Source: Henckelia pumila | Taxonomy: Eukaryota > Streptophyta > Magnoliopsida > Lamiales > Gesneriaceae | Assembly (NCBI RefSeq): GCF_033568475.1 | Contig: NW_027331840.1 | Location: forward strand, 806,001-870,000 | Length of the DNA stretch: 64,000 bases | Direction: 5' to 3' | Shown: in pieces, positions 1 through 43,677 of the stretch | How the letters are laid out: each line of letters begins with the position of its first letter | How positions within the stretch are numbered: position 1 is the stretch's first letter | Program-made: the position numbers and the translations under genes | The notes under the pieces: generated by a model | The model's input: only the letters and a program-made list of their open reading frames with translations | The model's database searches: none | Told to the model about the DNA's origin: nothing

Positions 1-1483
1 TTTATTTGAGTTAATCAGAGATTGCAGAGTTCACGAGCCGACTTGATTTTGATCAGGGTCCTTTTTGCAAATTTTGGAAATTTCAGGGACTAAAACGCAA
101 ATAGGGGATTTAATATTTTATCTACACTTAGATTTTTATTTTCATCACTTCTCCTTCCTCCCCAAAGCGTGAACCTCCATTGTAGGCGCCCAAAACGTTT
201 CTTCAAGCTTTGGAATTCTTCGATTTTGTCGATCCGTCCGTTAGAAATTATTTCTGAAGGCAGATTAGCGATCACAGCAACGAGAGCTTCGTTATATTGT
301 AAGTTCTTCTACGATCGGATACATTCTAGTTTTTGGATGTTGTTAGAATCGTTCTAGATTCGAGTATGTTGTTCTCTACAGAGTTCTGATCGTTTATTAT
401 CTGTCAGTTTTGAAATAGAGCGACGTTCGGATTTGTTATGATTTTTGGAAGCCATTTTCGAAAATCATGGTTTTGAGATTTGTTGGGTTTGTCTTGTTGT
501 TGTTGTATTAGCTTTGAATCGAGTTGATATCGGTATTGAACTGCTGTCTGCATATCCAGTTTGTTCAGTTATAGCCGTTATGCCGTCGGTTTGAATTTTG
601 GAGATTTTGAACCGTTTTTGAGTTATGAACTTGGCTTGTAAGTAGATCGTGGTTATTGATCAATCATCTCTTGTATCTGAACAGATTCGTTTGGAGTTGT
701 CAAGCCCTCAGTTAGCAACTGTTTGATCGTTTCAGAGATTGAACGAAGAACGGTATAAAGAGTTTTCCTTGAACCGTTGCCTTGTTGTGGTTAGATTGTG
801 TAGTTGTTGATACAATCTCTTTTGTAGCGTATCCAGAGTTGGGAGCTACTGCATTGAAAGGTAAAAGCAGTCATCGTAGCGGGATAGCATACTCGGGACT
901 GCGGTTCTCGAGTTTTCCCTTTTGAAATCACATACTTGCATCTACACTTGTTCTAGCATGAGGAACTTGTGTATTGTTTGATTGTATTGGCTTTTGTTAA
1001 AAGGATTATGTTTCTGTTATGCATTCATCTTGAGCCAATCTTGTTTCAGCGGGCAGAACCACCCTTTTTGTTTAGACGTTTGGGAACTATGATTGAGTGG
1101 CCCAGGTCGTAGTCATTTTGTCTGGTGCTATCATACTTATTATAGTTGCTCAAAGTCTAGAGGAGTGAGATACGTGGCACCACCTCGATTGGGAGAGTCG
1201 GTGAGTTGTTACGTGATCTTATCCTCGGGATCCCAAAAGCACAGCAGCAATCCCTCGTTATCAGATTTGATATCCCTGTTTAAAGACATGCATTTCATTA
1301 AGTTGTTATTGATTACGTTATTGCATTGAAAGCATGTTTGTTACTTGTATTACTTGTTATGTTGCTTTTACTGGGAATGTCGTTCTCACCGGTTATCCAG
1401 CTGTTGCTTTGTTTTGCTCCTGGATTCTTGTTCGCTTAATTGTTGTTTAATCTGATATTAGTTGTTTAGAACCGAGGTCTCAC
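1..1483. mobile_element. Unclassified LTR-like repeat at the left edge
   Basis: No protein domain is visible. The segment ends in GGTCTCACA, which on the minus strand reads TGTGAGACCTCGG, a plausible TG start of an LTR. This suggests one terminal repeat lying against, or inserted into, the Tat-type element to its right. Its other end lies outside the window. Only the last 75 bp or so (from 1409) recur in the three later array units, so the array breakpoint falls inside this repeat. Family and orientation are unresolved. Confidence 0.4.
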
Positions 1484-2675
1484 ACTTGGGCCTGGCTCCC
1501 CTGTGCCCGGCGCTCTTCAGCAAGTTGAAGGACCCTTGCTTTCCGGGCCGCTTCCGCAGCCTTATTGTCATCTTTTTCCTGAGCAGCCGCCTTCTCGGCC
1601 TCACGTTTTTGAGCGAAGGCCTGCTTCATTAGTCGGGGTTTCTTCTTCTTCGGGGCTGACTCAGCTGTGCAAAATATCAAGGAAAATAAGTGATATATTA
1701 GATACAGTATGGAAATAAAACAAGTACAAAATAACAGTAAAGCATACCAGAGACCGGGGCCTAGTCATCATACTCATCAATAATCCGGTCCACCGGATCA
1801 GTTACCCGGGCACCCAACCCGTAATCATTCAAAATTTTCTCCTCCAAGAGAGGGGCTGAAGGAAATTTTTGGTTTTCCACTAGCTCTTGAGATCGGAGAT
1901 AGGGTTCTTCCACTTTGTAATTCTTAGGGAGTTCGGGTTGAGGATGAAGGGTAGTTAAGAAGTTGGTGGGTCTGGTCCGGTTGCTAGGTAGTTGAATGTA
2001 AAAGAATATCTCTTTCCATCCTTTCCAAGAGGAGGGGGTATCATCCAAGAACCGGGCATTTTGCCGGGAGTTCAAGGAGAAGGACATCTCAGTGAAGCGA
2101 CACGAATAATAATAATGAAAAACAAGAGGGGTGATGGCCAAATTATTTGCTTTGAAAAGGACGTAAGTGGCGGCCATCATACGGAAGGCATTGGGATGAA
2201 ACTGGTTCAGAGGAACCTTATAAAAAGTAGCAATTTTATAATAGAAAGGATGAACAGGGAAACGAAGCCCATTCCTGAGCTGTTCTCTAAAGAAGGTATA
2301 GAACCCCTCGGGTGGCTGGTCAACCCGACCCAGAGGCCCAGGGATGATGATAGAATACGCCGGAGGGATGTTACCCATAAATCGAAGATCTTCTATGGAT
2401 TCCGGGTGTAGGGTACTGGTAAAGTGGGAGAACCAGGGACCTTCGGGGTTTTGTTTGGGCACAGGAAGGAGAGGCCCAGAGTCGGAGATTTTAGCCTTAT
2501 CCTTGTTTTTATAAGGCCCGATTTTAGCCTTCTTCGGACGAGATGAGGAGGGGGCTAGTATGGCTTGGACATTGGAGGTAGCAGGAAGGGGCGAATCGTG
2601 GCGTAAGGCCTCGGATTCTATATTAGAGGAGCCACGAATGTGGGCACTGGAGGATGAAGATGTGGAATTTGACAT
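1480..2675 (-). mobile_element. Antisense ORF of a Tat/Retand-type gypsy element (unit 1)
   Basis: The minus strand encodes a protein block of about 304 residues (1761-2675) followed by a Lys/Ala-rich block (1480-1680). The first block contains PPEGFYTFFREQLRNG and FPVHPFYYKIATFYKVP, which match the plant 'putative gypsy type transposon' family (PF04195). Extra ORFs of this family, antisense to gag-pol, are known from Tat-lineage elements. The ORF has its own promoter: a minus-strand TATAAATA near 2838-2845 and a leader to the ATG at 2675. The two blocks are separated by a gap that looks like an intron. Fossil; the main block looks whole here. Confidence 0.75.
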
Positions 2676-2904
2676 GTTTAAGGGACAAGGAAACTTTAAG
2701 GTAAGATAGACAGAAAACTTACAGAAGAAAGCAAGCTTGACACGCGGAGTCGCCGGAGACGGAGAAGCTTAGAAGCAGGGAAGGAATACGTGAACAGTGA
2801 AAGTAAAGAAAAAATGAAGAAAGGGGTTTCAGTATTTATAGGTGAAGAGCTTTAATTCTGACCGTAGATGAAAAGACGATCGAAGGGTAAGGGTGAACTT
2901 GGGA

Positions 2905-3846
2905 AGTTGAACCGAGCAGCATAATGATGACGCGGGAAGTCGAAAGGACAAGTAACGTCCTCTGACACCTGCCCGTCTTTTCAAATTCTAGGGCTAACGT
3001 CATCCCTATAGCTTTTGGACATTCATGGGGAATACCCTGGGAGGACCGGGGCAGCGGGACCTTAAACAACCAGGGGCAGGGCTGTAAGTCAGGACAGCGA
3101 ATACAACTCTAGCCTAACTATTTTTGGGATGAGTAGTGATGCCCTGGTAAGCCAAAGGGGCAGGGACATAAAGGGTCAGGAATGACAGGATTGTATTAAA
3201 GCAAGGATGACAAGGCTGTAAGTCAGGACAGCGAGTAAGACTCTAGCCCGACTATTTTTGGGGATGAGTAGTGATACCCTGGGAAGGCCGTGGTAGTAGG
3301 GCCATGAATGGCCAGGAGTGGCAGGGCCATATTAAGGCAGGCCATGATCCTCAGGAGCCCGGGATACCAGGTCTGCAGGACTTAGATAAGGTCCGGGTTT
3401 CAGGGACATGATCCCCACGATTACCATAAACCCGAGCATTCCGGGTTCATCATGTGTGACAGGCAAACGTGGGCAACTACTGCACCCACGATCCAGATCG
3501 TGGCCACTACCCAGGAATTGCGGAGTGACACTCTCACTCCAAGGTCTATAAATACCTTGTCACAGGTATTTGTAGAGGTATGTTCATCTAAATTGCCAGA
3601 ACAATATATTAATTTTCTCTAAAGCCCACTCTATTTCTAAGTCTAACTTAAGCATCGGAGTGGCCCCGCCGGAACCCTTCCGGCGCCCCCACTAACGTGC
3701 TTTTTTTTATTCCTTTCCTTGGTGTGCAGATCATCTCGACTAAGGAAGGACAACTCATATATTACCTCTACTAGCCCGGTCACTCAAGTCAGGCCCACTT
3801 CACTACTATGACATCCCGGGCCCTGGTTTTATTAGAACATCATCAA
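2905..3846 (+). mobile_element. Tat/Retand-type gypsy 3' LTR (unit 1; repeated in units 2-4)
   Basis: Plus-strand TATAAATA at 3547-3554 is followed by a leader with AAGCATCGGAGTGGCCCC and the CCGGAACCCTTCCGG palindrome, a layout typical of LTRs in the Tat lineage. The LTR runs directly into MOB1 intron sequence at about 3847, so this is the element's outer right end. The left LTR border is uncertain (2.9-3.1 kb). No gag or pol survives in the window. The equivalent right ends are near 9252, 14653 and 20055. Confidence 0.6.
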
Positions 3847-4096
3847 TCATGATGCCACACCAAGAGGGAAACTTGAATTTTAGTTTGTGTTAATGTAAAT
3901 TCCACTCTCTCTCTCTCTCTCTTTCATGCCACATTCTTCACATTCCATCATTCCTCACTGTTCGATTTATTGTGAATTTCATTTTATACTTGCTTTTTGT
4001 TTCTGGATGATGCCTTGCATCCACATTTTACATTCTGCATACCTTTATATATATGTTTATGAGCCACCGCGTTACATGATTCAATCAATATGATCA
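3847..4096 (+). pseudogene. MOB1 intron 2 fragment, array unit 1
   Basis: This 250-bp stretch matches the minus strand of the intact MOB1 gene between about 43795 and 43450. Shared marks are GATGCCACACCA, a CT microsatellite (3904-3923), and GAGCCACC-CGTTACATGATT just before GATCA. It carries no exon. It is the left flank of the target into which the Tekay/Del-type element inserted. The last five bases (4092-4096, GATCA) are the left target-site duplication. Confidence 0.88.
4092..4096. other. Left target-site duplication GATCA
   Basis: GATCA precedes the TGTAGCGACCC LTR end, and the same five bases follow the far LTR at 24625-24629. In the intact MOB1 paralogue (43450-43454, minus strand) the motif occurs once, which is the empty site. 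Confidence 0.9.
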
Positions 4097-5589
4097 TGTA
4101 GCGACCCATCCCGGATCCACTACCTAACAGAGTTAAGAGCATAATTAAGCATGCATTAAATAAATCGCTGCGGAAGTCTTAAATATAAACAGACCGGCGG
4201 AATACAACCGGCTAAACAAGCTCGATTAAACAACCCAATCGAATTTAAATAAAAACCTACAGCTAATCCTGCTGTCTTCAAGGTCACGGGCTACTCCAGG
4301 CTCCTGATGCTCAAACCTGCACCTCCACCTGCCCCGTCGAATAGGGTGTCCAAATATATAGAAAAGATTGGACGTGAGCTTTAAGCTCAATACGAAAGCA
4401 CGGATAAACATACAAATATGATGCATACAAATGACAGGGTATCCATATCTGGGATAACTGTATACAAACTGCTCAGACTGGCATCTGGGATATAAGTTCG
4501 TCACATCGGGGTAGCTAACCACTGTGTGCGACCACTCATTCCCGAATAACGGACGCGGACCACAGAGTCCTCCAGATATCAGTACCTAAGGGTACTCGAT
4601 ATCAAAACGTCCAACAGGGCTGAGTAACCCAAACTGCCTCATCTCAAAAGATATACTGATGTACAGGCACAAGATGATATGCACATGCCGCATAACAATA
4701 ATAACATGCAAACACATAAATGCAACATATAAGCATGCATATCCGCTAGCAATCTCAGTCAGTACTTACGTACCTTTCTAAGGCAGTCCTAGTAGTCCCA
4801 CTCTAGGTTCCAAGCCTATCAACAAGTCTACAATGAAAATATTCATGCATCAATCAATAAGCTCTAAAAGCCTTAACTAAGCTATTGCATACTCCTAAAT
4901 AATTTAAGGAGACCATAGCTATACATGCGTCCGTCGTCAGCCCACTGATGGCGACTATCCCGCAACTAGGGGCACACCCTTGCTGCAGCTCCATAGCCTC
5001 GAGCACTGCTCCGCTAAACGAGTACTGCTCAGCTACTATGTCAAACACTGTCTGACTATACTACAAATAATATTCTACTCCAAATCTAAAATAAGAGTAC
5101 CCAAAGCCCTAAAATAGAGCCACGTGGGCAAAGGAGAGAATTCGGAATTGGCAAGAAATGAGGAGCTCGGACCTCATATTTATAGCCAATGATCGGAAGC
5201 TCCGTTCCTGATCGGAAGCTCCGAACGTGTAGATCGGAAGATCCGTTCCTCCGATCGGAAGCTCCGTTTGATACGTGTAAATTCGGTCCACATGCAACCA
5301 CACACCTGTCACCGACAACCATCGGAAGCTCCGATCCTGATCGGACGTTCCGATCTCCCTGCTTCCGATGTGGTTCCGAACTTACCAAGATCGGAGGCTC
5401 CGATCCTGGATCGGTGGTTCCGATCCCACTCGAGTCATGAAACCCTCTAAGCCATTTTCGAGTGTCCTGGATCCATTTCTGGACTCCGTTAATCCTTCTG
5501 GAATTTCCTTAATCATGGTTTACTTAATCTCGATATGATTATACGATTAATTACTCATTAATCACTAGTTTTGGATACGGGTCACTACA
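4097..5589 (-). mobile_element. Tekay/Del-type gypsy LTR, array unit 1 (3' LTR of the element)
   Basis: A 1493-bp LTR with TGTAGCGACCC and GGGTCACTACA ends. It reads on the minus strand: a TATAAATA box lies at 5177-5184 (minus), and the polypurine-like CCTTTTAAGGTGGTGGGAA plus a GATTTCGAGGACGAAATCC tail stand directly before its minus-strand start. This tail is typical of Tekay/Del chromoviruses. Between 5190 and 5430 the U3 carries a cluster of near-palindromic ATCGGAAGCTCCGAT motifs. Fossil LTR; it looks whole. Confidence 0.85.
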
Positions 5590-6814
5590 TTCCCACCACC
5601 TTAAAAGGATTTCGTCCTCGAAATCTAAGGTAAACCTCGGAATATAGTAAAAACCACTTGTTCAATTCATCAATAGTTTCGATTCCAAATATTGGGTTTA
5701 ATAACCTTCTACAGACCCAATCTTCGATAAAATAGTGTAACACTACTGACTACCGTCAGTTATCCATAGATAACCTCAACAACACGGCACCTTCGGTCCA
5801 AATTGTCAATTGAATCAGTCACACTGCCTACAAATCTTAGCGATGACACCCTTGCTAAGATCGTAACTAATCAGCAGCTATGTCTAGACATGTACGAACT
5901 CCATCGCAGCCCAACTAGAGAACAAGATACAACACATTGTATCTCACTGGTCTATCGGTAACATCGTATCCCTTGATGTTATCGAAAAGCTCTAAACAAA
6001 CGATCTAGATTCAACTCTCGGTCAAATCCTAGATGTCCTTTTTCCAAAACAGTACCTTATGCGAAATAGAATGACAACTACCTGCCACCCGCTCGCAGAG
6101 CAATCGCACCACTTCACACAACTCTAACCATCAGAAATCCTCAGACTGATTGCAATAAACCTTGATCCGAATCTCGCTATCGTAGATAGCATCTACTCGA
6201 TTACATTAGTCATCCTGCCATGGATAACAACAAAATCCTGACAATTCCTGGCGTCATAGTACGTACTTTCAGTACTCACCCTGCCATTGACCAACGAATG
6301 TTCCCAAAGAACAACAACTAGCAAACAAAGATTACTAACCCCAATTGTGATAAGATCCTTATACACAATTTCTTGTCCAAAAGCATTCTTCGAGGTCGTC
6401 GTCTCGAAATTCACTAACATCATGTTGAAACTCCCAGATGGACCAACACCATACTCGGCAGTAGTATCCTATATCAGATGTTTACTTCTATCTCGGAACT
6501 AGAGATAGTATTGACGAAAACGATTCTGGTTAATCCTGTTCCAGATAACCAAACCTTGGCTCCCTAACGAGGATAACCAAACTGATTCACCAAGCGCGGA
6601 ATCCTTTCTTTTTTTTTTCTGCAGCCTGAGCATTTTCTGCCCAGGTCTTCCGCGCGCAGGCGAGGCCTTCGATGGGCCTCTGAATTGTTTGCCCACGCGC
6701 GCGCGAGCTTGGTACCTTGCGCAGACACGAGCCTTTGGTTGGTCTTGGGTGATGAAGCCCGCGCGAGCTTGGTGCCTCGCGCGGGCGCGCGGCGTTTAAA
6801 AAAAAACTTTTGAA
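5590..6814 (-). mobile_element. 3' internal region of the Tekay/Del-type element (repeated in units 2-4)
   Basis: This lies inward of the LTR and begins on its minus-strand end with the GACGAAATCC tail and the purine tract. No convincing reverse transcriptase, integrase or chromodomain sequence is seen, so it is probably untranslated 3' sequence or a decayed/non-autonomous body. The unit border falls in a GC-rich stretch at its far end. Equivalent stretches: 10992-12215, 16395-17618 and 21795-22245. Confidence 0.6.
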
Positions 6815-6885
6815 TTGTTTTGCTCCTGGATTCTTGTTCGCTTAATTGTTGTTTAATCCGAGATTAGTTGTTTAGAACCGAGGTC

Positions 6886-8081
6886 TCACACTTGGGCCTG
6901 GCTCCCCTGTGCCCGGCGCTCTTCAGCAAGTTGAAGGACCCTTGCTTTCCGGGCCGCTTCCGCAGCCTTATTGTCATTTTTTTCCTGAGCAGCCGCCTTC
7001 TCGGCCTCACGTTTTTGAGAGAAGGCCTGCTTCATTAGTCGGGGTTTCTTCTTCTTCGGGGCTGACTCAGCTGTGCAAAATATCAAGGAAAATAAGTGAT
7101 ATATTAGATACAGTATGGAAAGAAAACAAGTACACAATAACAGTAAAGCATACCAGAGACCGGGGCCTGGTCATCATACTCATCAATAATCCGGTCCACC
7201 GGATCAGTTACCCGGGCACCTAACCCGTAATCATTCAAACTTTTCTCCTCCAAGAGAGGGGCTGAAGGAAATTTTTGGTTTTCCACTAGCTCTTGAGATC
7301 GGAGATAGGGTTCTTCCACTTTGTAATTCTTAGGGAGTTCGGGTTGAGGAGGAAGGGTAGTTAAGAAGTTGGTGGGTCTGGTCCGGTTTCTAGGTAGTTG
7401 AATGTAAAAGAATCTCTCTTTCCATCCTTTCCAAGAGTAGGGGGTATCATCCAAGAACCGGGCATTTTGTCGGGCGTTCAAGGAGAAGGCCATCTCAGTG
7501 AAGCGACATGAATAATAATAATGAAAAACAAGAGGGGTGATGGCCAAATTATTTGCTTTGAAAAGGACGTAAGTGGCGGCCATCATACGGAAGGCATTGG
7601 GATGAAACTGGTTCAGAGGAACCTTATAAAAAGCAGCAATTTTATAATAGAAAGGATGAACAGGGAAACGAAGCCCATTCCTGAGCTGTTCCCTAAAGAA
7701 GGTATAGAACCCCTCGGGTGGCTGGTCAGCCCGACCCAGAGGCCCAGGGATGATGATAGAATACGCCGGAGGGATGTTACCCATAAATCAAAGATCTTCT
7801 ATGGATTCCGGGCGTAGGGTACTGGTAAAGTGGGAGAACCAGGGACCTTCGGGGTTTTGTTTGGGCACAGGAAGGAGAGGCCCAGAGTCGGAGATTTTAG
7901 CCTTACCCTTGTCCTTATAAGGCCCGATTTTAGCCTTCTTCGGACGAGATGAGGAGGGGGCTAGTATGGCTTGGACATTGGAGGTAGCAGGAGGGGGCGA
8001 ATCGTGGTGTAAGGCCTCGGATTCTATATCAGAGGAGCCACGAATGTGGGCACCGGAGGATGAAGATGTGGAATTTGACAT
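6886..8081 (-). mobile_element. Antisense PF04195-type ORF, unit 2
   Basis: Same two-block arrangement as in unit 1, with the start codon at 8081. The main block carries about one break, so this copy is a fossil. Sequence and upstream TATA region are nearly identical to the other units. Confidence 0.7.
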
Positions 8082-9252
8082 GTTTAAGGGACAAGGAAAC
8101 TTTAAGGTAAGATAGACAGAAAACTTACAGAAGAAAGCAAGCTTGACACGCGGAGTCGCCGGAGACGGAGAAGCTTAGAAGCAGGGAAGGAATACGTGAA
8201 CAGTGAAAGTAAAGAAAAAATGAAGAAATGGGTTTCAGTATTTATAGGTGAAGAGCTTTAATTCTAACCGTAGATGAAAAGACGATCGAAGGGTAAGGGT
8301 GAACTTGGGAAGTTGAACCGAGCAGCATAATGATGACGCAGGAAGTCGAAAGGACAAGTAACGTCCTCTGACACCTGCCCGTCTTTTCAAGTTCTAGGGC
8401 TAACGTCATCCCTATAGCTTTTGGACATTCATGGGGAATACCCTGGGAGGACCGGGGCAGTGGGACCTTAAACAACCAGGGGCAGGGCTGTAAGTCAGGA
8501 CAGCGAATACGACTCTAGCCTAACTATTTTTGGGATGAGTAGTGATGCCCTGGTAAGCCAAGGGGGCAGGGACATAAAGGGTCAGGAATGACAGGGTTGT
8601 ATTAAAGCAAGGATGACAAGGCTGTAAGTCAGGACAGCGAGTAAGACTCTAGCCCGACTATTTTTGGGGATGAGTAGTGATACCCCGGGAAGGCCGTGGT
8701 AGCAGGGCCATGAATGGCCAGGAGTGGCAGGGCCGTATTAAGGCAGGCCATGTTCCTCAGGAGCCCGGGATACTAGGTCTGCAGGACTTAGATAAGGCCC
8801 GGGTTTCAGGGACATGATCCCCACGATTACCATAAACCCGAGCATTCCGGGTTCATCGTGTGTGACAGGCAAACGTGGGCAACTACTGCACCCACGATCC
8901 AGATCGTGGCCACTACCCAGGAATTGCGGAGTGACACTCTCACTCCAAGGTCTATAAATACCTTGTCACAGGTATTTGTAGAGGTATGTTCATCTAAATT
9001 GCCAGAACAATATATTCATTTTCTCTAAAGCCCACTTTATTTCTAAGTCTAACTTAAGCATCGGAGTGGCCCCGCCAGAACCCTTCCGGCGTCCCCACTA
9101 ACGTGCTTTTTTTTATTCCTTTCCTTGGTGTGCAGATCATCTCGACTAAGGAAGGACAACTCATATATTACCTCTACTAGCCCGGTCACTCAAGTCAGGC
9201 CCACTTCACTACTATGACATCCCGGGCCCTGGTTTTATTAGAACATCATCAA

Positions 9253-9498
9253 TCATGATGCCACACCAAGAGGGAAACTTGAATTTTAGTTTGTGTTAAT
9301 GTAAATTCCACTCTCTCTCTCTCTCTCATGCCACATTCTTCACATTCCATCATTCCTCACTGTTCGATTTATTGTGATTTTCATTTTATACTTGCTTTTT
9401 GTTTCTGGATGATGCCTTGCATCCACATTTTACATTCTGCATACCTTTATATATATGTTTATGAGCCACCGCGTTACATGATTCAATCAATATGATCA
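9253..9498 (+). pseudogene. MOB1 intron 2 fragment, array unit 2
   Basis: Copy of the unit 1 fragment with a shorter CT tract. It was carried along by the tandem duplication. Confidence 0.88.
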
Positions 9499-10991
9499 TG
9501 TAGCGACCCATCCCGGATCCACTACCTAACAGAGTTAAAAGCATAATTAAGCATGCATTAAATAAATCGCTGCGGAAGTCTTAAATATAAACAGACCGGC
9601 GGAATACAACCGGCTAAACAAGCTCGATTAAACAACCCAATCGAATTTAAATAAAAACCTACAGCTAATCCTGTTGTCTTCAAGGTCACGGGCTACTCCA
9701 GGCTCCTGATACTCAAACCTGCACCTCCACCTGCCCCGTCGAATAGGGTGTCCAAATATACAAAAAAGACTGTACGTGAGCTCTAAGCTCAATACGAAAG
9801 CACGGATAAACATACAAATATGATGCATGCAAATGACAGGGTATCCATATCTGGGATAACTGTATACAAACTGCTCAGACTGGCGTCTGGGATATAAGTT
9901 CGTCACATCGGGGTATCTAACCACTGTGTGCGACCACTCATTCCCGAATAACGGACGCGGACCACGGAGTCCTCCAGATATCAGTACCTAAGGGTACTCG
10001 ATATCAAAACGTCCAACAGGGCTGAGTAACCCTAACTGGCTCATCTCAAAAGATATACTGATGTACAGGCACAAGATGATATGCACATGCCGCATAACAA
10101 TAATAACATGCAAACACATAAATGCAACATATAAGCATGCATATCCGCTGGCAATCTCAGTCAGTACTTACGTACCTTTCTAAGGCAGTCCTAGTAGTCC
10201 CACTCTAGGTTCCAAGCCTATTAACAAGTCTACAATGAAAATATTCATGCATCAATCAATAAGCTCTAAAAGCCTTAACTAAGCTATTGCATACTCCTAA
10301 ATAATTTAAGGAGACCATAGCTATACATGCGTCCGTCGTCAGCCCACTGATGGTGACTATCCCGCAACTAGGGGCACACCCTTGCTGCAGCTCCACAGCC
10401 TCGAGCACTGCTCCGCTAAACGAGTACTGCTCAGCTACTATGTCAAACACTGTCTGACTATACTACAAATAATATTCTACTCCAACTCTAAAATAAGAGT
10501 ACCCAAAGCCCTAAAATAGAGCCACGTGGGCGAAGGAGAGAATTCAGAATTGGCAAGAAATGAGGAGCTCGGACCTCATATTTATAGCCAACGATCGGAA
10601 GCTCCGTTCCTGATCGGAAGCTCCGAACGTGTAGATCGGAAGATCCGTTCCTCCGATCGGAAGCTCCGTTTGATACGTGTAAATTCGGTCCACATGCAAC
10701 CACACACCTGTCACCGACAACCATCGGAAGCTCCGATCCTGATCGGACGTTCCGATCTCCCTGCTTCCGATGTGGTTCCGAACTTACCAAGATCGGAGGC
10801 TCCGATCCTGGATCGGTGGTTCCGATCCCACTCGAGTCATGAAACCCTCTAAGCCATTTTCGAGTGTCCTGGATCCATTTCTGGACTCCGTTAATCCTTC
10901 TGGAATATCCTTAATCATGGTTTACTTAATCTCGATATGATTATACGATTAATTACTCATTAATCACTAGTTTTGGATACGGGTCACTACA
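9499..10991 (-). mobile_element. Tekay/Del-type LTR, array unit 2
   Basis: 1493 bp, same ends and same orientation as the LTR in unit 1. Confidence 0.85.
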
Positions 10992-12286
10992 TTCCCACCA
11001 TCTTAAAAGGATTTCGTCCTCGAAATCTAAGGTAAACCTCGGAATATAGTAAAAACCACTTGTTCAATTCATCAATAGTTCCGATTCCAAATATTGGGTT
11101 TAATAACCTTCTACAGACCCAATCTTGGATAAAATAGTGTAACACTACTGACTACCGTCAGTTATCCATCGATAACCTCAACAACACGGCACCTTCGGTC
11201 CAAATTGTCAATTGAATCAGTCACACTGCCTACAAATCTTAGCGATGACACCCTTGCTAAGATCGTAACTAATCAGCAGCTATGTCTAGACATGTACGAA
11301 CTCCATCGCAGCCCAACTAGAGAACAAGATACAACACATTGTATCTCACTGGTCTATCGGTAACATCGTATCCCTTGATGTTATCGAAAAGCTCTAAACA
11401 AACGATCTAGATTCAAATCTCGATCAAATCCTAGATGTCCTTTTTCCAAAACAGTACCTTATGCGAAATAGAATGACAACTACCTGCCACCCGCTCGCAG
11501 AGCAATCGCACCACTTCACACGACTCTAACCATCAGAAATCATCAGACTGATTGAAATAAACCTTGATCCGAATCTCGCTATCGTAGATAGCATCTACTC
11601 GATTACATTAGTCATCCTGCCATGGATAACAACAAAATCCTGACAATTCCTGGCATCATAGTACGTACTTTCAGTACTCACCCTGCCATTGACCAACAAA
11701 TGTTCCCAAAGAACAACAACTAGCAAACAAAGATTACTAACCCCAATTGTGATAAGATCCTTATACACAATTTCTTGTCCAAAAGCATTCTTCGAGGTCG
11801 TCGTCTCGAAATTCACTAACATCATGTTGAAACTTCCAGATGGACCAACACCATACTCGGCAGTAGTATCCTATATCAGATGTTTACTTCTATCTCGGAA
11901 CTAGAGATAGTATTGACGAAAACGATTCTGGTTAATCCTGTTCCAGATAACCAAACCTTGGCTCCCTAACGAGGATAACCAAACTGATTCACCAAGCGCG
12001 GAATCCTTTCTTTTTTTTTCTGCAGCCTGAGCATTTTCTGCCCAGGTCTTCCGCGCGCGGGCGAGGCCTTCGATGGGCCTCTGAATTGTTTTCCCACGTG
12101 CGCGCGAGCTTGGTACCTTGCGCGGACGCGAGCCTTTGGTTGGTCTCGGGTGATGAAGCCCGCGCGAGCTTGGTGCCTTGCGCGGGCGCGCGGCGTTTAA
12201 AAAAAAACTTTTGAATTGTTTTGCTCCTGGATTCTTGTTCGCTTAATTGTTGTTTAATCCGAGATTAGTTGTTTAGAACCGAGGTC

Positions 12287-13481
12287 TCACACTTGGGCCT
12301 GGCTCCCCTGTGCCCGGCGCTCTTCAGCAAGTTGAAGGACCCTTGCTTTCCGGGCCGCTTCCGCAGCCTTATTGTCATCTTTTTCCTGAGCAGCCGCCTT
12401 CTCGGCCTCACGTTTTGAGCGAAGGCCTGCTTCATTAGTCGGGGTTTCTTCTTCTTCGGGGCTGACTCAGCTGTGCAAAATATCAAGAAAAATAAGTGAT
12501 ATATTAGATACAGTATGGAAAGAAAACAAGTACACAATAACAGTAAAGCATACCAGAGATCGGGGCCTGGTCATCATACTCATCAATAATCCAGTCCACT
12601 GGATCAGTTACCCGAGCACCTAACCCGTAATCATTCAAACTTTTCTCCTCCAAGAGAGGGGCTGGAGGAAATTTTTGGTTTTCCACTAGCTCTTGAGATC
12701 GGAGATAGGGTTCTTCCACTTTGTAATTCTTAGGGAGTTCGGGTTGAGGAGGAAGGGTAGTTAAGAAGTTGGTGGGTCTGGTCCGGTTGCTAGGTAGTTG
12801 AATGTAAAAGAATCTCTCTTTCCATCCTTTCCAAGAGGAGGGGGTATCATCCAAGAACCGGGCATTTTGTCGGGCATTCAAGGAGAAGGCCATCTCAGTG
12901 AAGCGACACGAATAATAATAATGAAAAACAAGAGGGGTGATGGCCAAAGTATTTGCTTTGAAAAGGACGTAAGTGGCGGCCATCATACGGAAGGCATTGG
13001 GATGAAACTGGTTCAGAGGAACCTTGTAAAAAGCAGCAATTTTATAATAGAAAGGATGAACAGGGAAACGAAGCCCATTCCTGAGCTGTTCCCTAAAGAA
13101 GGTATAGAACCCCTCGGGTGGCTGGTTAGCCCGACCCAGAGGCCCAGGGATGATGATAGAATACGCCGGAGGGATGTTACCCATAAATCAAAGATCTTCT
13201 ATGGATTCCGGGCGTAGGGTACTGGTAAAGTGGGAGAACCAGGGACCTTCGGGGTTTTGTTTGGGCACAGGAAGGAGAGGCCCAGAGTCGGAGATTTTAG
13301 CCTTACCCTTGTCCTTATAAGGCCCAATTTTAGCCTTCTTCGGACGAGATGAGGAGGGGGCTAGTATGGCTTGGACATTGGAGGTAGCAGGAGGGGGCGA
13401 ATCGTGGTGTAAGGCCTCGGATTCTATATCAGAGGAGCCACGAATGTGGGCACCGAAGGATGAAGATGTGGAATTTGACAT
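12287..13481 (-). mobile_element. Antisense PF04195-type ORF, unit 3
   Basis: Start codon at 13481. Same domain motifs as unit 1. About two breaks are seen across the two blocks, so this is a fossil copy. Confidence 0.7.
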
Positions 13482-14653
13482 GTTTAAGGGACAAGGAAAC
13501 TTTAAGGTAAGATAGACAGAAAACTTACAGAAGAAAGCAAGCGTGACACGCGGAGTCGCCGGAGACGGAGAAGCTTAGAAGCAGGGAAGGAATACGTGAA
13601 CAGTAAAAGTAAAGAAAAAAATGAAGAAATGGGTTTCAGTATTTATAGGTGAAGAGCTTTAATTCTGACCATAGATGAAAAGACGATCGAAGGGTAAGGG
13701 TGAACTTGGGAAGTTGAACCGAGCAGCATAATGACGACGCGGGAAGTCGAAAGGACAAGTAACGTCCTCTGACACCTGCCCGTCTTTTCAAGTTCTAGGG
13801 CTAACGTCATCCCTATAGCTTTTGGACATTCATGGGGAATACCCTGGGAGGACCGGGGCAGTGGGACCTTAAACAACCAGGGGCAGGGCTGTAAGTCAGG
13901 ACAGCGAATACGACTCTAGCCTAACTATTTTTGGGATGAGTAGTGATGCCCTGGTAAGCCAAGGGGGCAGGGACATAAAGGGACAGGAATGACAGGGTTG
14001 TATTAAAGCAAGGATGACAAGGCTGTAAGTCAGGACAGCGAGTAAGACTCTAGCCCGACTATTTTTGGGGATGAGTAGTGATACCCCGGGAAGGCCGTGG
14101 TAGCAGGGCCATGAATGGCCAGGAGTGGCAGGGCCGTATTAAGGCAGGCCATGTTCCTCAGGAGCCCGGGATACCAGGTCTGCAGGACTTAGATAAGGCC
14201 CGGGTTTCAGGGACATGATCCCCACGATCACCATAAACCCGAGCATTCCGGGTTCATCGTGTGTGACAGGCAAACGTGGGCAACTACTGCACCCACGATC
14301 CAGATCGTGGCCACTACCCAGGAATTGCGGAGTGACACTCTCACTCCAAGGTCTATAAATACCTTGTCACAGGTATTTGTAGAGGTATGTTCATCTAAAT
14401 TGCCAGAACAATATATTCATTTTCTCTAAAGCCCACTCTATTTCTAAGTCTAACTTAAGCATCGGAGTGGCCCCGCCAGAACCCTTCCGGCGTCCCCACT
14501 AACGTGCTTTTTTTTATTCCTTTCCTTGGTGTGCAGATCATCTCGACTAAGGAAGGACAACTCATATATTACCTCTACTAGCCCGGTCACTCAAGTCAGG
14601 CCCACTTCACTACTATGACATCCCGGGCCCTGGTTTTATTAGAACATCATCAA

Positions 14654-14901
14654 TCATGATGCCACACCAAGAGGGAAACTTGAATTTTAGTTTGTGTTAA
14701 TGTAAATTCCACTCTCTCTCTCTCTCTCTCATGCCACATTCTTCACATTCCATCATTCCTCACTGTTCGATTTATTGTGAATTTCATTTTATACTTGCTT
14801 TTTGTTTCTGGATGATGCCTTGCATCCACATTTTACATTCTGCATACCTTTATATATATGTTTATGAGCCACCGCGTTACATGATTCAATCAATATGATC
14901 A
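14654..14901 (+). pseudogene. MOB1 intron 2 fragment, array unit 3
   Basis: Copy of the unit 1 fragment. The CT tract length differs again, as expected for a microsatellite. Confidence 0.88.
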
Positions 14902-16394
14902 TGTAGCGACCCATCCCGGATCCACTACCTAAAAGAGTTAAGAGCATAATTAAGCATGCATTAAATAAATCGCTGCGGAAGTCTTAAATATAAACAGACC
15001 GGCGGAATACAACCGGCTAAACAAGCTCGATTAAACAACCCAATCGAATTTAAATAAAAACCTACAGCTAATCCTGCTGTCTTCAAGGTCACGGGCTACT
15101 CCAGGCTCCTGATGCTCAAACCTGCACCTCCACCTGCCCCGTCGAATAGGGTGTCCAAATATACAGAAAAGACTGGACGTGAGCTCTAAGCTCAATACGA
15201 AAGCACGGATAAACATACAAATATGATGCATGCAAATGACAAGGTATCCATATCTGGGATAACTGTATACAAACTGCTCAGACTGGCGTCTGGGATATAA
15301 GTTCGTCACATCGGGGTATCTAACCACTGTGTGCGACCACTCATTCCCGAATAATGGACGCGGACTACGGAGTCCTCCAGATATCAGTACCTAAGGGTAC
15401 TCGATATCAAAACGTCCAACAGGGCTGAGTAACCCTAACTGGCTCATCTCAAAAGATATACTGATGTACAGGCACAAGATGATATGCACATGCCGCATAA
15501 CAATAATAACATGCAAACACATAAATGCAACATATAAGCATGCATATCCGCTGGCAATCTCAATCAGTACTTACGTACCTTTCTAAGGCAGTCCTAGTAG
15601 TCCCACTCTAGGTTCCAAGCCTATCAACAAGTCTACAATGAAAATATTCATGCATCAATCAATAAGCTCTAAAAGCCTTAACTAAGCTATTGCATACTCC
15701 TAAATAATTTAAGGAGACCATAGCTATACATGCGTCCGTCGTCAGCCCACTGATGGCGACTATCCCGCAACTAGGGGCACACCCTTGCTGCAGCTCCACA
15801 GCCTCGAGCACTGCTCCGCTAAACGAGTACTGCTCAGCTACTATGTCAAACACTGTCTGACTATACTACAAATAATATTCTACTCCAACTCTAAAATAAG
15901 AGTACCCAAAGCCCTAAAATAGAGCCACGTGGGCGAAGGAGGGAATTCGGAATTGGCAAGAAATGAGGAGCTCGGACCTCATATTTATAGCCAACGATCG
16001 GAAGCTTCGTTCCTGATCGGAAGCTCCGAACGTGTAGATCGGAAGATCCGTTCCTCCGATCGGAAGCTCCGTTTGATACGTGTAAATTCGGTCCACATGC
16101 AACCACACACCTGTCACCGACAACCATCGGAAGCTCCGATCCTGATCGGACGTTCCGATCTCCCTGCTTCCGATGTGGTTCCGAACTTACCAAGATCGGA
16201 GGCTCCGATCCTGGATCGGTGGTTCCGATCCCACTCGAGTCATGAAACCCTCTAAACCATTTTCGAGTGTCCTGGATCCATTTCTGGATTCCGTTAATCC
16301 TTCTGGAATTTCCTTAATCATGGTTTACTTAATCTTGATATGATTATACGATTAATTACTCATTAATCACTAGTTTTGGATACGGGTCACTACA
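14902..16394 (-). mobile_element. Tekay/Del-type LTR, array unit 3
   Basis: 1493 bp. Shares variants with the unit 4 LTR (for example CTCAATCAGTAC where units 1 and 2 have CTCAGTCAGTAC). Confidence 0.85.
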
Positions 16395-17689
16395 TTCCCA
16401 CCACCTTAAAAGGATTTCGTCCTCGAAATCTAAGGTAAACCTCGGAATATAGTAAAAACCACTTGTTCAATTCATCAATAGTTCCGATTCCAAATATTGG
16501 GTTGAATAACCTTCTACAGACCCAATCTTGGATAAAATAGTGTAACACTACTGACTACCGTCAGTTATCCATCGATAACCTCAACAACACGGCACCTTCG
16601 GTCCAAATTGTCAATTGAATCAGTCACACTACCTACAAATCTTAGCGATGACACCCTTGCTAAGATCGTAACTAATCAGCAGCTATGTCTAGACATGTAC
16701 GAACTCCATCGCAGCCCAACTAGAGAACAAGATACAACACATTGTATCTCACTGGTCTATCGGTAACATCGTATCCCTTGATGTTATCGAAAAGCTCTAA
16801 ACAAACGATCTAGATTCAACTCTCGGTCAAATCCTAGATGTCCTTTTTCCAAAACAGTACCTTATGCGAAATAGAATGACAACTACCTTCCACCCGCTCG
16901 CAGAGCAATCGCACCACTTCACACGACTCTAACCATCAGAAATCCTCAGACTGATTGCAATAAACCTTGATCCGAATCTCGCTATCGTAGATAGCATCTA
17001 CTCTTTTACATTAGTCATCCTGCCATGGATAACACCAAAATCCTGACAATTCCTGGCGTCATAGTACGTACTTTCAGTACTCACCCTGCCATTGACCAAC
17101 GAATGTTTCCAAAGAACAACAACTAGCAAACAAAGATTACTAACCCCAATTGTGATAAGATCCTTATACACAATTTCTTGTCCAAAAGCATTCTTCGAGG
17201 TCGTCGTCTCGAAATTCACTAACATCATGTTGAAACTCCCAGATGGACCAACACCATACTCAGCAGTAGTATCCTATATCAGATGTTTACTTCTATCTCG
17301 GAACTAGATATATTATTGACGAAAACGATTCTGGTTAATCCTGTTCCAGATAACCAAACCTTGGCTCCCTAACGAGGATAACCAAACTGATTCACCAAGC
17401 GCGGAATCCTTTCTTTTTTTTTCTGCAGCCTGAGCATTTTCTGCCCAGGTCTTCCGCGCGCGGGCGAGGCCTTCGATGGGCCTCTGAATTGTTTGCCCGC
17501 GCTCGCGCGAGCTTGGTACCTTGCGCGGACGCGAGCCTTTCGTTGGTCTCGGGTGATGAAGCCTGCGCAAGCTTGGTGCCTCGCGCGGGCGCGCGGTGTT
17601 TAAAAAAAAACTTTTGAATTGGTTTGCTCCTGGATTCTTGTTCGCTTAATTGTTGTTTAATCCGAGATTAGTTGTTTAGAACCGAGGTC

Positions 17690-18884
17690 TCACACTTGGG
17701 CCTGGCTCCCCTGTGCCCGGCGCTCTTCAGCAAGTTGAAGGACCCTTGCTTTCCGGGCCGCTTCCGCAGCCTTATTGTCATCTTTTTCCTGAGCAGCCGC
17801 CTTCTCGGCCTCACGTTTTTGAGCGAAGGCATGCTTCATTAGTCGGGGTTTCTTCTTCTTCGGGGCTGACTCAGCTGTGCAAAATATCAAGGAAAATAAG
17901 TGATATATTAGATACAGTATGGAAATAAAACAAGTACACAATAACAGTAAAGCATACCAGAGACCGGGGCCTGGTCATCATACTCATCAATAATCCGGTC
18001 CACCGGATCAGTTACCCGGGCACCTAACCCGTAATCATTCAAACTTTTCTCCTCCAAGAGAGGGGCTGAAGGAAATTTTTGGTTTTCCACTAGCTCTTGA
18101 GATCGGAGATAGGGTTCTTCCACTTTGTAATTCTTAGGGAGTTCGGGTTGAGGAGGAAGGGTAGTTAAGAAGTTGGTGGGTCTGGTCCGGTTTCTAGGTA
18201 GTTGAATGTAAAAGAATCTCTCTGTCCATCCTTTCCAAGAGGAGGGGGTATCATCCAAGAACCGGGATTTTGTCGGGCGTTCAAGGAGAAGGCCATCTCA
18301 GTGAAGCGACATGAATAATAATAATGAAAAACAAGAGGGGTGATGGCCAAATTATTTGCTTTGAAAAGGACGTAAGTGGCGGCCATCATACGGAAGGCAT
18401 TGGGATGAAACTGGTTCAGAGGAACCTTATAAAAAGCAGCAATTTTATAATAGAAAGGATGAACAGGGAAACGAAGCCCATTCCTGAGCTGTTCCCTAAA
18501 GAAGGTATAGAACCCCTCGGGTGGCTGGTCAGCCCGACCCAGAGGCCCAGGGATGATGATAGAATACGCCGGAGGGATGTTACCCATAAATCGAAGATCT
18601 TCTATGGATTCCGGGCGTAGGGTACTGGTAAAGTGGGAGAACCAAAGACCTTCGGGGTTTTGTTTGGGCACAGGAAGGAGAGGCCCAGAGTCGGAGATTT
18701 TAGCCTTACCCTTGTCCTTATAAGGCCCGATTTTAGCCTTCTTCGGACGAGATGAGGAGGGGGCTAGTATGGCTTGGACATTGGAGGTAGCAGGAGGGGG
18801 CGAATCGTGGCGTAAGGCCTCGGATTCTATATCAGAGGAGCCACGAATGTGGGCACCGGAGGATGAAGATGTGGAATTTGACAT
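17690..18884 (-). mobile_element. Antisense PF04195-type ORF, unit 4
   Basis: Start codon at 18884. The N-terminal Ser-rich region and the FYTFFREQLRNG motif are present. About one break is seen, so this is a fossil copy. Confidence 0.7.
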
Positions 18885-20055
18885 GTTTAAGGGACAAGGA
18901 AACTTTAAGGTAAGATAGACAGAAAACTTACAGAAGAAAGCAAGCTTGACACGCGGAGTCGCCGGAGACGGAGAAGCTTAGAAGCAGGGAAGGAATACGT
19001 GAACAGTGAAAGTAAAGAAAAAATAAAGAAAGGGGTTTCAGTATTTATAGGTGAGGAGCTTTAATTCTGACCGTAGATGAAAAGACGATCGAAGGGTAAG
19101 GGTGAACTTGGGAAGTTGAACCAAGCAGCATAATGATGACGCGGGAAGTCGAAAGGACAAGTAACGTCCTCTGACACCTGCCCGTCTTTTCAAATTCTAG
19201 GGCTAACGTCATCCCTATAGCTTTTGGAAATTCATGGGGAATACCCTGGGAGGACCGTGGCAGCGGGACCTTAAACAACCAGGGGCAGGGCTGTAAGTCA
19301 GGACAGCGAATACGAATCTAGCCTAACTATTTTTGGGATGAGTAGTGATGCCCTGGTAAGCCAAGGGGGCAGGGACATAAAGGGTCAGGAATGACAGGGT
19401 TGTATTAAAGCAAGGATGACAAGGCTGTAAGTCAGGACAGCGAGTAAGACTCTAGCCCGACTATTTTTGGGGATGAGTAGTGATACCCCGGGAAGGCCGT
19501 GGTAGCAGGGCCATGAATGGCCAGGAGTGGCAGGGCCGTATTAAGGCAGGCCATGATCCTCAGGAGCCCGGGATACTAGGTCTGCAGGACTTAGATAAGG
19601 CCCGGGTTTCAGGGACATGATCCCCACGATTACCATAAACCCGAGCATTCCGGGTTCATCGTGTGTGACAAGCAAACGTGGGCAACTACTGCACCCACGA
19701 TCCAGATCGTGGCCACTACCCAGGAATTGCGGAGTGACACTCTCACTCCAAGGTCTATAAATACCTTGTCACAGGTATTTGTAGAGGTATGTTCATCTAA
19801 ATTGCCAGAACAATATATTCCTTTTCTCTAAAGCCCACTCTATTTCTAAGCCTAACTTAAGCATCGGAGTGGCCCCGCCGGAACCCTTCCGGCGCCCCCA
19901 CTAACGTGCTTTTTTTTATTCCTTTCCTTGGTGTGCAGATCATCTCGACTAAGGAAGGACAACTCATATATTACCTCTACTAGCCCGATCACTCAAGTCA
20001 GGCCCACTTCACTACTATGACATCCCGGGCCCTGGTTTCATTAAAATATCATCAA

Positions 20056-20301
20056 TCATGATGCCACACCAAGAGGGAAACTTGAATTTTAGTTTGTGTT
20101 AATGTAAATTCCACTCTCTCTCTCTCTCTCATGCCACATTCTTCACATTCCATCATTCCTCACTGTTCGATTTATTGTGAATTTCATTTTATACTTGCTT
20201 TTTGTTTCTGGATGATGCCTTGCATCCACATTTTACATTCTGCATACCTTTATATATATGTTTATGAGCCACCGCGTTACATGATTCAATCAATATGATC
20301 A
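20056..20301 (+). pseudogene. MOB1 intron 2 fragment, array unit 4
   Basis: Copy of the unit 1 fragment, ending in GATCA directly before the LTR. Confidence 0.88.
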
Positions 20302-21794
20302 TGTAGCGACCCATCCCGGATCCACTACCTAACAGAGTTAAGAGCATAATTAAGCATGCATTAAATAAATCGCTGCGGAAGTCTTAAATATAAATAGACC
20401 GGCGGAATACAACCGGCTAAACAAGCTCGATTAAACAACCCAATCAAATTTAAATAAAAACCTACAGCTAATCCTGCTGTCTTCAAGGTCACGGGCTACT
20501 CCAGGCTCCTGATGCTCAAACCTGCACCTCCACCTGCCCCGTCGAATAGGGTGTCCAAATATACAGAAAAGACTGGACGTGAGATCTAAGCTCAATACGA
20601 AAGCACGGATAAACATACAAATATGATGCATGCAAATGACAGGGTATCCATATCTGGGATAACTGTATACAAACTGCTCAGACTGGCGTCTGGGATATAA
20701 GTTCGTCACATCGGGGTATCTAACCACTGTATGCGACCACTCATTCCCGAATAACGGACGCGGACCACGGAGTCCTCCAGATATCAGTACCTAAGGGTAC
20801 TCGATATCAAAACGTCCAACAGGGCTGAGTAACCCTAACTGGCTCATCTCAAAAGATATACTGATGTACAGGCACAAGATGATATGCACATGCCGCATAA
20901 CAATAATAACATGCAAACACATAAATGCAACATATAAGCATGCATATCCGCTGGCAATCTCAATCAGTACTTACGTACCTTTCTAAGGCAGTCCTAGTAG
21001 TCTTACTCTAGGTTCCAAGCCTATCAACAAGTCTACAATGAAAATATTCATGCATCAATCAATAAGCTCTAAAAGCCTTAACTAAGCTATTGCATACTCC
21101 TAAATAATTTAAGGAGACCATAGCTATACATGCGTCCGTCGTCAGCCCACTGATGGCGACTATCCCGCAACTAGGGGCACACCCTTGCTGCAGCTCCACA
21201 GCCTCGAGCACTGCTCCGCTAAACGAGTACTGCTCAGCTACTATGTCAAACACTGTCTGACTATACTACAAATAATATTCTACTCCAACTCTAAAATAAG
21301 AGTACCCAAAGCCCTAAAATAGAGCCACGTGGGCGAAGGAGAGAATTCGGAATTGGCAAGAAATGAGGAGCTCGGACCTCATATTTATAGCCAACGATCG
21401 GAAGCTCCGTTCCTGATCGGAAGCTCCGAACGTGTAGATCGGAAGATCCGTTCCTCCGATCGAAAGCTCCGTTTGATACGTGTAAATTCGGTCCACATGC
21501 AACCACACACCTGTCACCGATAACCATCGGAAGCTCCGATCCTGATCGGACGTTCCGATCTCCCTGCTTCCGATGTGGTTCCGAACTTACCAAGATCGGA
21601 GGCTCCGATCCTGGATCGGTGGTTCCGATCCCACTCGAGTCATGAAACCCTCTAAGCCATTTTCGAGTGTCCTGGATCCATTTCTGGATTCCGTTAATCC
21701 TTCTGGAATTTTCTTAATCATGGTTTACTTAATCTCGATATGATTATACGATTAATTACTCATTAATCACTAGTTTTGGATACGGGCCACTACA
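20302..21794 (-). mobile_element. Tekay/Del-type LTR, array unit 4
   Basis: 1493 bp, with the same TG...CA ends and minus orientation. Confidence 0.85.
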
Positions 21795-22245
21795 TTCCCA
21801 CCACCTTAAAAGGATTTCGTCCTCGAAATCTAAGGTAAACCTCGGAATATAGTAAAAACCACTTGTTCAATTCATCAATAGTTCCGATTCCAAATATTGG
21901 GTTGAATAACCTTCTACAGACCCAATCTTGGATAAAATAGTGTAACACTACTGACTACCGTCAGTTATCCATCGATAACCTCAACAACACGGCACCTTCG
22001 GTCCAAATTGTCAATTGAATCAGTCACACTGCCTACAAATCTTAGCGATGACACCCTTGCTAAGATCGTAACTAATCAGCAGCTATGTCTAGACATGTAC
22101 GAACTCCATCGCAGCCCAACTAGAGAACAAGATACAACACATTGTATCTCACTGGTCTATCGGTAACATCGTATCCCTTGATGTTATCGAAAAGCTCTAA
22201 ACAAACGATCTAGATTCAACTCTCGGTCAAATCCTAGATGTCCTT

Positions 22246-23308
22246 ATTCCCTCTCCCGAGTGCCGAATAAAATATATCAACTACAATTCAATTCCAATAT
22301 CCCTATTAAGAATTTACTTGCAGTGATCAATTCAAAACAATGTTCTTTTTAAAAGCTCTATTAAAGTTATAAGCTCTCCCGAGTCAGATAAACAATTAAC
22401 AGTGTATTTTCCAATGGTCCTATTCAAAATATCCTCTCTCGAGTGCCAGATTTCAAATAAATATTACAAATCAATTATTGATCAGATAATTGAAAAGACA
22501 ATCAATTCTAGAACAAACAATTAATCTAGAAGAAACTCAATTCAAGAAAATCAATAATTCATTTTACTCCCTGAGGGATCGATATCTGAATTTTTCACTA
22601 TATTAAAACTTGACACTCGTACGCTTGCGAGGAATTTTCACAACAAGTTTTTGGCGCCGCTGCCGGGGAGTAAATTTTGATTATTTTTTAGTCTTGTTAC
22701 AAATTAGTCTAGATTTTAATTTAGAGTTTTTTATTTTATTTTAAGTAACTAATTAATTTCCTCCTATTTTTAATTGCAGTTTATGCCGCGAAGAATAAGA
22801 AATTAAAATTTAAAAGGCGGTTCGTGGAATTTATTTGGCGAGTAAAAGAGAAAGGGAAGACTTAACACCGGTGAAAGTCGGGGTGACGACTATAAACCAA
22901 GCGCTTTTTGGGAGGCAACCCAAATTTTTTGTTTTACTTTATTTTTATTTTTATTTTTTATTTTATTTTTTAAATTATGCTTTAATTTTTATTCTTGTTC
23001 ATTAGATTAATTTTTGTTTTTGATTTTTAAAATTATTATTGATAATTTTGGAGGCCTGATTTTATAAACCTTTGAATTGTTTCAGGAATTTAGAGCTTAT
23101 GGCAGAGCTTTGTGCGCGCTCGCTCGTGAATCTCCCGCGCCCGCATTTCCTTTATGCTTCCTTAACTGCTTAATAGCGCTACACCTTGCGCTATCGCACA
23201 ACCCATCTGCGCTTCATATAGCGCTATCGCGCATCACTTCCAAAGCGCCAACAACGATCCCTCATTAGCGCTAGAGAAAGCGCTATCGCGCAGCCATCTC
23301 TTCAACAC
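22246..23308 (+). mobile_element. Athila-like gypsy remnant
   Basis: At about 22655 lies TTGGCGCCGCTGCCGGGG, which is complementary to the 3' end of plant tRNA-Asp and is the usual primer site of Athila-type elements. An LTR-like end (CTCGTACGCTTGCGAGG) stands just before it. A start like MPRR (near 22783) and the TTGGGAGGCAACCCAA motif (near 22910) follow. This motif normally lies far downstream in Athila elements, so nearly all coding sequence is gone. Repeated GCGCTATCGCGC words fill 23160-23300. It joins unit 4 on the left and a truncated Tekay/Del LTR on the right. Strongly broken. Confidence 0.65.
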
Positions 23309-24624: not shown

Positions 24625-24637
24625 GATCAACTGTCAG

Positions 24638-26420: not shown

Positions 26421-26720
26421 AAACATGTTTCTGATTATTCGAACTGACTTTTATTTAGAGATCATGAAATAAGTATTTGGTTGCAACCCCAGTAACGATT
26501 TTAGTATTACTGATGTTTCGCAGCTATATTTATATGTATCATGTTCTGTAAGAATCCAGTTGCTTGTGTTCTTATTTTATGTGCTTGACATGCATCAACA
26601 TCGTCCCATATTAATATGGCATTACCATTTACAGGCCACACACACACACATTGCAAATTTCAGCCTGTAGTTTTTCGTAAGCTGAAACGTAAAAAATATG
26701 CACGTTTGTAGTTTCTTTTT

Positions 26721-41384: not shown

Positions 41385-41642
41385 AGCTGATGAAAAACTA
41401 CAGGCTGAAATTTGCTGTGTGTGTGTGTGTGCTGTAAATGGTAATGCCAGATTAATATGGGACGATGTTGATGCATGTCAAGCACATAAAATAAGAACAC
41501 AAGCAACTGGATTCTTACAGAACATGATACATATTAATATAGCTGCGAAACATCAGTAATACTAAAATCGTTACTGGGGTTGCAACCAAACACTTATTTC
41601 ATCTCTAAATAAAAGTCAGTTCGAATAATCAGAAACACGTCT

Positions 41643-43615: not shown

Positions 43616-43677
<62 letters not shown>

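Follow-up and report, generated by a model that had tools for sequence, protein, structure and literature searches.

A window of 64,000 nucleotides from the genome of Henckelia pumila (positions 806001-870000 of contig NW_027331840.1, here C86) carries four head-to-tail copies of a ~5.4-kb composite unit at window positions 1409-22250. Each unit consists, in order, of the tail of a long terminal repeat (LTR) of a retrotransposon, A; part of B, an element of Ty3 type in reverse orientation; a MOB1 intron fragment of 251 bp; and, from a third element, C, one LTR with adjoining internal DNA. The array is a tandem (adjacent) segmental duplication of a nested locus. Its copies lie head to tail with identical breakpoints, and unduplicated relatives of the joined sequences, a C sibling and LTR-A relatives, extend beyond the breakpoint. 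We put at roughly 85% the probability that the nested locus underwent one head-to-tail duplication of ~5.4 kb, through a break or a template switch, and was later amplified to four copies. Genome searches covered the 884.7-Mb assembly of 133 contigs.

The composite array and its founding junction

A reading made from the sequence alone had described a tandem array of four ~5.4-kb units in this window. Self-BLAST bore this out, aligning window 1409-16850 to 6815-22250 over 15,446 columns at 98.4% identity, far beyond chance. Successive copies are spaced by 5406, 5401, and 5403 bp. Copies 2 and 3 are complete and copies 1 and 4 are shortened, with the end of copy 4 at approximately 22243-22250. 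The copies and the joins between them are as follows.

1409-6591, + strand: copy 1; LTR-A tail cut to 76 bp by a deletion
6589-6592: founding junction, occurrence 1; C interior to the middle of an LTR of A, with a 3-bp overlap, ACC
6592-11993, + strand: copy 2; LTR-A tail at 6592-6890, then B, MOB1 intron, and C
11991-11994: founding junction, occurrence 2
11994-17396, + strand: copy 3
17394-17397: founding junction, occurrence 3
17397-22250, + strand: copy 4; ends ~550 bp short of the expected end

The same junction recurs between 6591 and 6592, 11993 and 11994, and 17396 and 17397, which are all three of the inter-copy positions. A 25-base junction word, searched with up to 3 mismatches allowed, had three matches in the genome, at window 6580, 11982, and 17385, all within the array, while the reversed-pattern control for this word had no genome-wide match. 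The junction is therefore restricted to the array, rather than recurring at many unlinked loci, the pattern that the sequence-only reading had set against its own proposal. Queries across the breakpoint were also informative. Of 40 scored matches to C, the 37 that lie outside the array end at query positions 190-195 of 301 (window 6589-6594), whereas the three array copies continue. LTR-A matches start at window 6589, and LTR-A copies extend leftwards past the breakpoint. The C sibling (C86:714939-717391), which is 94.7% identical over window 4097-6591 and 95.5% identical over 5232-6591, extends beyond the breakpoint as well. No extended similarity was found between the C and LTR-A parents at this point, just words of 8 to 9 bp that were off register and had E values of at least 1.1.

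Two further borders within the unit were searched in the same way. The A/B border had four genome matches, one in each of the four copies and none elsewhere. The MOB1/C border was found in all four copies and in one 3-mismatch match on contig C1. The unit itself ends within C and within LTR-A, in agreement with the earlier statement that unit borders fall inside elements. Confinement of the C/LTR-A and A/B junctions to the array, together with these internal ends, upholds the proposal of local duplication of an already nested locus as opposed to transposition.

Source elements and flanking repeats

Each unit had been described as holding parts of three or more transposons along with 250 bp of MOB1 intron, and A, B, C, and the 251-bp intron fragment could each be matched elsewhere in the genome or, for the intron, in an uninterrupted MOB1 copy. 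The heading of the same reading had counted two elements; the unit holds three. Their parts in and around copy 1, and the features to the right of the array, are as follows.

1-1484, + strand: LTR6 of A (Ty3-type), last of six A LTRs; begins 29 bp before window base 1 and has an internal deletion of ~563 bp with its scar at 1409-1416
1409-1416, + strand: TTGTTTTG, the 8-bp deletion scar in LTR6; apparent left border of the array
1485-3845, - strand: part of B (Ty3-type); terminal region and a frame in the gag region that matches Pfam Transposase_28; split by the A insertion
3846-4096, + strand: MOB1 intron fragment with GATCA as its last bases; similar to 43450-43638 (91.7%) and 43728-43791 (96.9%) in the uninterrupted MOB1 copy
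4097-5589, - strand: C LTR, TGTAG...CTACA; target-site duplication GATCA at 4092-4096 and 24625-24629
5590-6591, - strand: C internal part, cut at the duplication breakpoint
22244-23307: filler D, with approximate edges; two oppositely oriented pieces, 22244-22562 and from 22558 on, have matches to a dispersed repeat family
23308-24624, - strand: second LTR belonging to the original C insertion, truncated at its far end; identity of 96.4-96.7% with the C LTRs in the array
24625-26708, + strand: 3' part of the C-interrupted MOB1 copy; exon pieces match Pfam PF03637

The composite array begins within LTR6 of a second array, which is composed of element A and lies at C86:755101-807484. This A array has six LTRs and five internal regions with a period of ~7.04 kb and contains two interrupting insertions. 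A 5-bp target-site duplication, CTTGG, precedes the first A LTR (C86:755101) and recurs after the last one at window 1485-1489. Full-length A LTRs are 2070 to 2076 bp long. LTR1 and LTR6 differ by 2.84%, LTR3 to LTR5 differ from one another by 0.7-1.0%, and LTR2 differs from LTR3 to LTR5 by 1.8%. Open reading frames from one A copy to the left of the window have matches above the cut-offs to Retrotrans_gag, Ty3_capsid, RVP_2, RVT_1, and RNase H; the integrase core (rve) scored 26.5 bits, under its cut-off of 32.6. Tandem LTR-retrotransposon arrays (LTR-internal-LTR-internal-LTR) form by unequal recombination between LTRs, and the A array, with a unit of one LTR plus one internal region, fits this layout. 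The 5.4-kb array adjoins the A array, involves the same LTR, and has a similar divergence. Unlike arrays made by homologous LTR joins, however, it was founded without long homology, and simple LTR-LTR recombination was rejected as the origin of the 5.4-kb unit, since that unit spans A, B, MOB1, and C. One insertion in the A array (C86:796852-802804, ~5.95 kb) ends in a run of A residues, is flanked by a repeat of ~16 bp, AAGTGGTCAGGTTCAG, and looks like a long interspersed nuclear element. Three same-strand LTR-A matches at C1:57361581, 57368656, and 57375725, spaced by ~7.07 kb, are probably another tandem A array.

The gag-region frame of B scored 28 bits against Transposase_28 (cut-off, 26.2). 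B relatives occur across the genome at 83-86% identity, with 36 of 40 scored matches outside the array. B continues to the left of C86:755101 and is taken up again at window 1502; one relative, L049, spans the two parts at 73% on the left and 85% on the right under lenient scoring. The right end of B was placed at 3845 because MOB1 similarity begins at 3846, and the lenient L049 alignment extends past that point to 3881. No target-site duplication of B could be established, and B may either have integrated at this place in the intron or have been joined to the intron sequence. A 70-bp minisatellite of ~2.2 kb to the left of the A insertion (C86:751643-753854) probably lies in B.

The uninterrupted MOB1 copy carries a single GATCA, the empty site of C. 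To the right of the array, three exon pieces, which support the MOB1 assignment, were excised from the sequence and scored against PF03637 (Mob1_phocein; cut-off, 27 bits). Two of them scored above the cut-off, with 43.3 and 52.2 bits, and the first scored 26.8 bits, slightly below it. Three MOB1-like copies that are 89.8-92.8% identical lie within 20 kb (window 24625-26708, 30140-31104, and 41360-43638), the first inverted with respect to the others. A 70-bp inverted stub adjoins the displaced upstream part of MOB1 considered below. Between copy 4 and the remaining C LTR, the match of the filler to the dispersed family covers 22244-23144, and its two opposite-facing pieces share 5 bp at 22558-22562. 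Elsewhere in the window, a 97-bp unit is present in 3.5 perfect copies at 27763-28106, and a 57-bp unit in 4.6 copies with 94% matches at 52691-52952. The latter repeat may be coding, as 57 is a multiple of three.

Origin and history of the copies

In the proposed series of events, C would have inserted into the MOB1 intron with a 5-bp duplication, GATCA, B would have come to adjoin MOB1 in the same intron by a presumed step, and A would have inserted into B with a 5-bp duplication, CTTGG. Next, a double-strand break or a template switch, resolved by a pathway that is likewise presumed, would have joined the C interior (6591) to the middle of the downstream A LTR with a 3-bp overlap. This founding join would have given one head-to-tail duplication of ~5.4 kb, and unequal exchange, gene conversion, or rolling replication between adjacent homologous copies would have raised the number to four in a short time, the addition of copies 3 and 4 being a conjectural step. 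The copies would afterwards have diverged mostly independently. At some stage, a deletion between 8-bp repeats would have removed ~563 bp of LTR from copy 1, and copy 4 would have been cut, with filler DNA following it. The insertions of C and A with their target-site duplications, the exact common junction, its restriction to the locus, and the relative divergences are the observed parts of this account.

Divergence gives the order of these events. The C LTRs differ by 2.95-3.25% and LTR1 and LTR6 of A by 2.84%, while the copies differ pairwise by 1.3-2.0%, mainly through substitutions. Since both LTR values exceed the divergence between copies, the insertions of C and A predate the duplication. 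The LTR rate of rice, 1.3e-8 per site and year, would put the copies some 0.5 to 0.75 million years apart, a figure that is only indicative.

The distribution of differences among the copies was then considered. In undirected counts over columns shared by all four copies, copy 1 differed from the rest at 48 sites, and copies 2, 3, and 4 stood alone at 19, 27, and 29. Copies 2 and 3 were grouped against copies 1 and 4 at 9 sites, and the other two groupings of two against two had 3 sites each. Past the end of copy 4, copy 3 was alone at 14 sites, copy 2 at 8, and copy 1 at 5. For polarisation, up to three C relatives served as outgroups in the C part, and a single relative, ~13.4% divergent, in the B part. 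Copies 1 to 4 had 14, 11, 8, and 9 private sites in the C part, and shared sites were few (copies 2 to 4, two; copies 3 and 4, two; copies 1 and 2, one), with three ambiguous sites and one at which all four copies were unlike the outgroup. The C-part tree is nearly star-like, and its short inner branches fit a rapid growth from one copy to four. The B-part tree is less clean. Here private sites numbered 22, 6, 15, and 14; shared sites were found for copies 2 to 4 (four), copies 2 and 3 (six), and copies 2 and 4 (one), the patterns 1-2-4 and 1-2-3 were in conflict with three sites each, and seven sites were unpolarised.

Several observations weigh against this account of one duplication and later amplification. 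Some later exchange between copies is likely, because of the sites shared by copies 2 and 3 and the conflicting patterns in the B part. The LTR-A tails of copies 2 to 4 (~299 bp) are 2.3-3.7% apart, above the average of the unit. The ACC overlap, 3 bp without long homology, is weak as a sign of mechanism, at least 3 bp being expected in ~5% of random joins under a simple model. The number of four copies is a count in one assembly of one individual. Finally, the upstream part of MOB1 lies ~130 kb to the left and reversed (C86:677194-678278 and 689944-690663 versus window 43866-45594), which represents an inversion or more, and a B query (window 1487-3845) had no match in C86:636001-883365 outside the four copies, so that no second B LTR is present there. 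The displaced MOB1 part and the missing B LTR in that interval indicate rearrangement of the locus beyond the proposed account.

Alternatively, a 5.4-kb extrachromosomal circle could have been closed by end joining of C to LTR-A, replicated as a rolling circle, and reinserted at its home locus by homologous recombination. The near-star pattern of the C part and the identical junctions fit one such burst, and the same flanks would result. We nevertheless regard a circle as doubtful: no circle-specific trace was found, the array is present at its home locus alone, and duplication in place needs fewer steps.

An assembly artefact, in which haplotypes or reads were mislaid as tandem copies, is far less probable. 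C86 is short (883 kb) and repeat-rich, as such an error might favor. However, copies 1 to 3 differ by 74-106 substitutions versus 4-5 gap columns over ~5.4 kb, and two-state sites comprise 116 transitions and 49 transversions. Typical long-read error is unlike a pattern of many substitutions with few gaps, and the differences between copies look like evolution rather than read error. Moreover, stacking of haplotypes would not by itself make the C/LTR-A junction, which is seen three times.

The sequence-only reading had placed the unit border at 1409/6815 and joined the duplication there through TTGTTTT microhomology. The BLAST borders coincide with these positions, but LTR6 lacks ~563 bp that are present in LTR1 (C86:756544 to 757107), where they are flanked by two copies of TTGTTTTG; aligned LTR lengths of 2075 bp for LTR1 and ~1513 bp for LTR6 agree with a 563-bp loss. 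When sequence spanning 1409 served as the query, 39 of the 40 scored matches ended at window 1416, and the window alone continued. The deletion was probably repeat mediated, since overlaps of at least 8 bp are expected in ~1 in 10,000 joins under a simple model. The borders fall at 1409/6815 because copy 1 is without the LTR segment that copies 2 to 4 retain; owing to the deletion, BLAST places the start of the array 223 bp inside the unit. Window 6592-6890, which runs across 6815, is unbroken native LTR-A: 37 of 40 scored matches to an LTR-A query lie outside the array and span the supposed junction region at 87-93% identity. The junction word proposed for a genome-wide search, TTGAATTGTTTTGCTCC, belongs to the native LTR-A sequence, which explains its three matches: LTR1 of the A array has one, and the other two fall within the composite array. 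A duplication join at 1409/6815 via TTGTTTT was accordingly rejected as highly improbable; that motif marks the separate deletion in the LTR of copy 1, and the duplication junction is at 6591/6592. When an end copy carries a deletion, the BLAST borders of an array can thus lie away from the actual breakpoint of the duplication.

Spread of the unit by transposition, as a composite element, to which the LTRs within it might point, has next to no probability and was rejected, because the unit ends lie inside C and LTR-A, not at element termini flanked by a duplicated target site, and because the junctions occur in the array alone.

Relation to known tandem repeats

Several comparable systems have been described. 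At maize centromere 10, a 22.7-kb adjacent segmental duplication is present in two copies, which its authors date to ~121,000 years, and its junction joins a coding region to an LTR with 5 shared nucleotides, for which they invoke alternative end joining (PMC4806543). There, as in H. pumila, nested or partial retrotransposons were duplicated in place, and an element interior was joined to an LTR with a short overlap (5 nucleotides there, 3 bp here). In contrast with those two copies of 22.7 kb, the present array has four of 5.4 kb that include a host-gene intron and are 1.3-2.0% apart. By analogy, anatomy and likely mechanism match this maize duplication, the closest published match found.

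The maize centromeric retrotransposon arrays CRM1TR and CRM4TR are also considered to have begun with an illegitimate join of a retrotransposon interior (there an untranslated region) and an LTR and then to have grown; their authors favor gene conversion and keep unequal exchange or rolling circles possible (PMC3648361). Each of those arrays has one parent family and many more monomers, whereas the present array combines three elements and an intron in four copies. Long retrotransposon-related satellites, as recounted in the same paper, include sobo of wild potato (4.7-kb unit, ~360 kb) and E3900 of rye (PMC3648361). Their tandem units, like the one described here, come partly from LTR retrotransposons and are kilobase-long in sobo, but they are established satellites and not four copies in one place (PMC3648361). 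In rye heterochromatin, monomer trees are mainly star-like (PMC4857426), and in grass pea, satellites derive from retrotransposon-borne tandem repeats (PMC7004042).

A satellite would be a long homogenised array or an array at many loci, and here four copies occupy one locus. Junction searches of the assembly gave no sign of a genome-wide satellite. The earlier suggestion that arrays of this kind can seed satellite DNA holds as a possibility in principle, but growth beyond one locus or four copies was not seen. It is conceivable, though we think it unlikely, that the A array and the composite array, which share one LTR, are products of one local episode of over-replication or repair and thus show a complex satellite with long units as it first forms. 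If so, the founder junction, the source elements, and the C empty site of a nascent satellite would still be readable.

The accepted picture is left unchanged: the array shows a known process, not a new one, in a clear and well-resolved form. It presents an unusually readable start of a kilobase-sized plant tandem repeat, in which a single contig shows the parents, the join that founded the array, two target-site duplications, and the succession of events.

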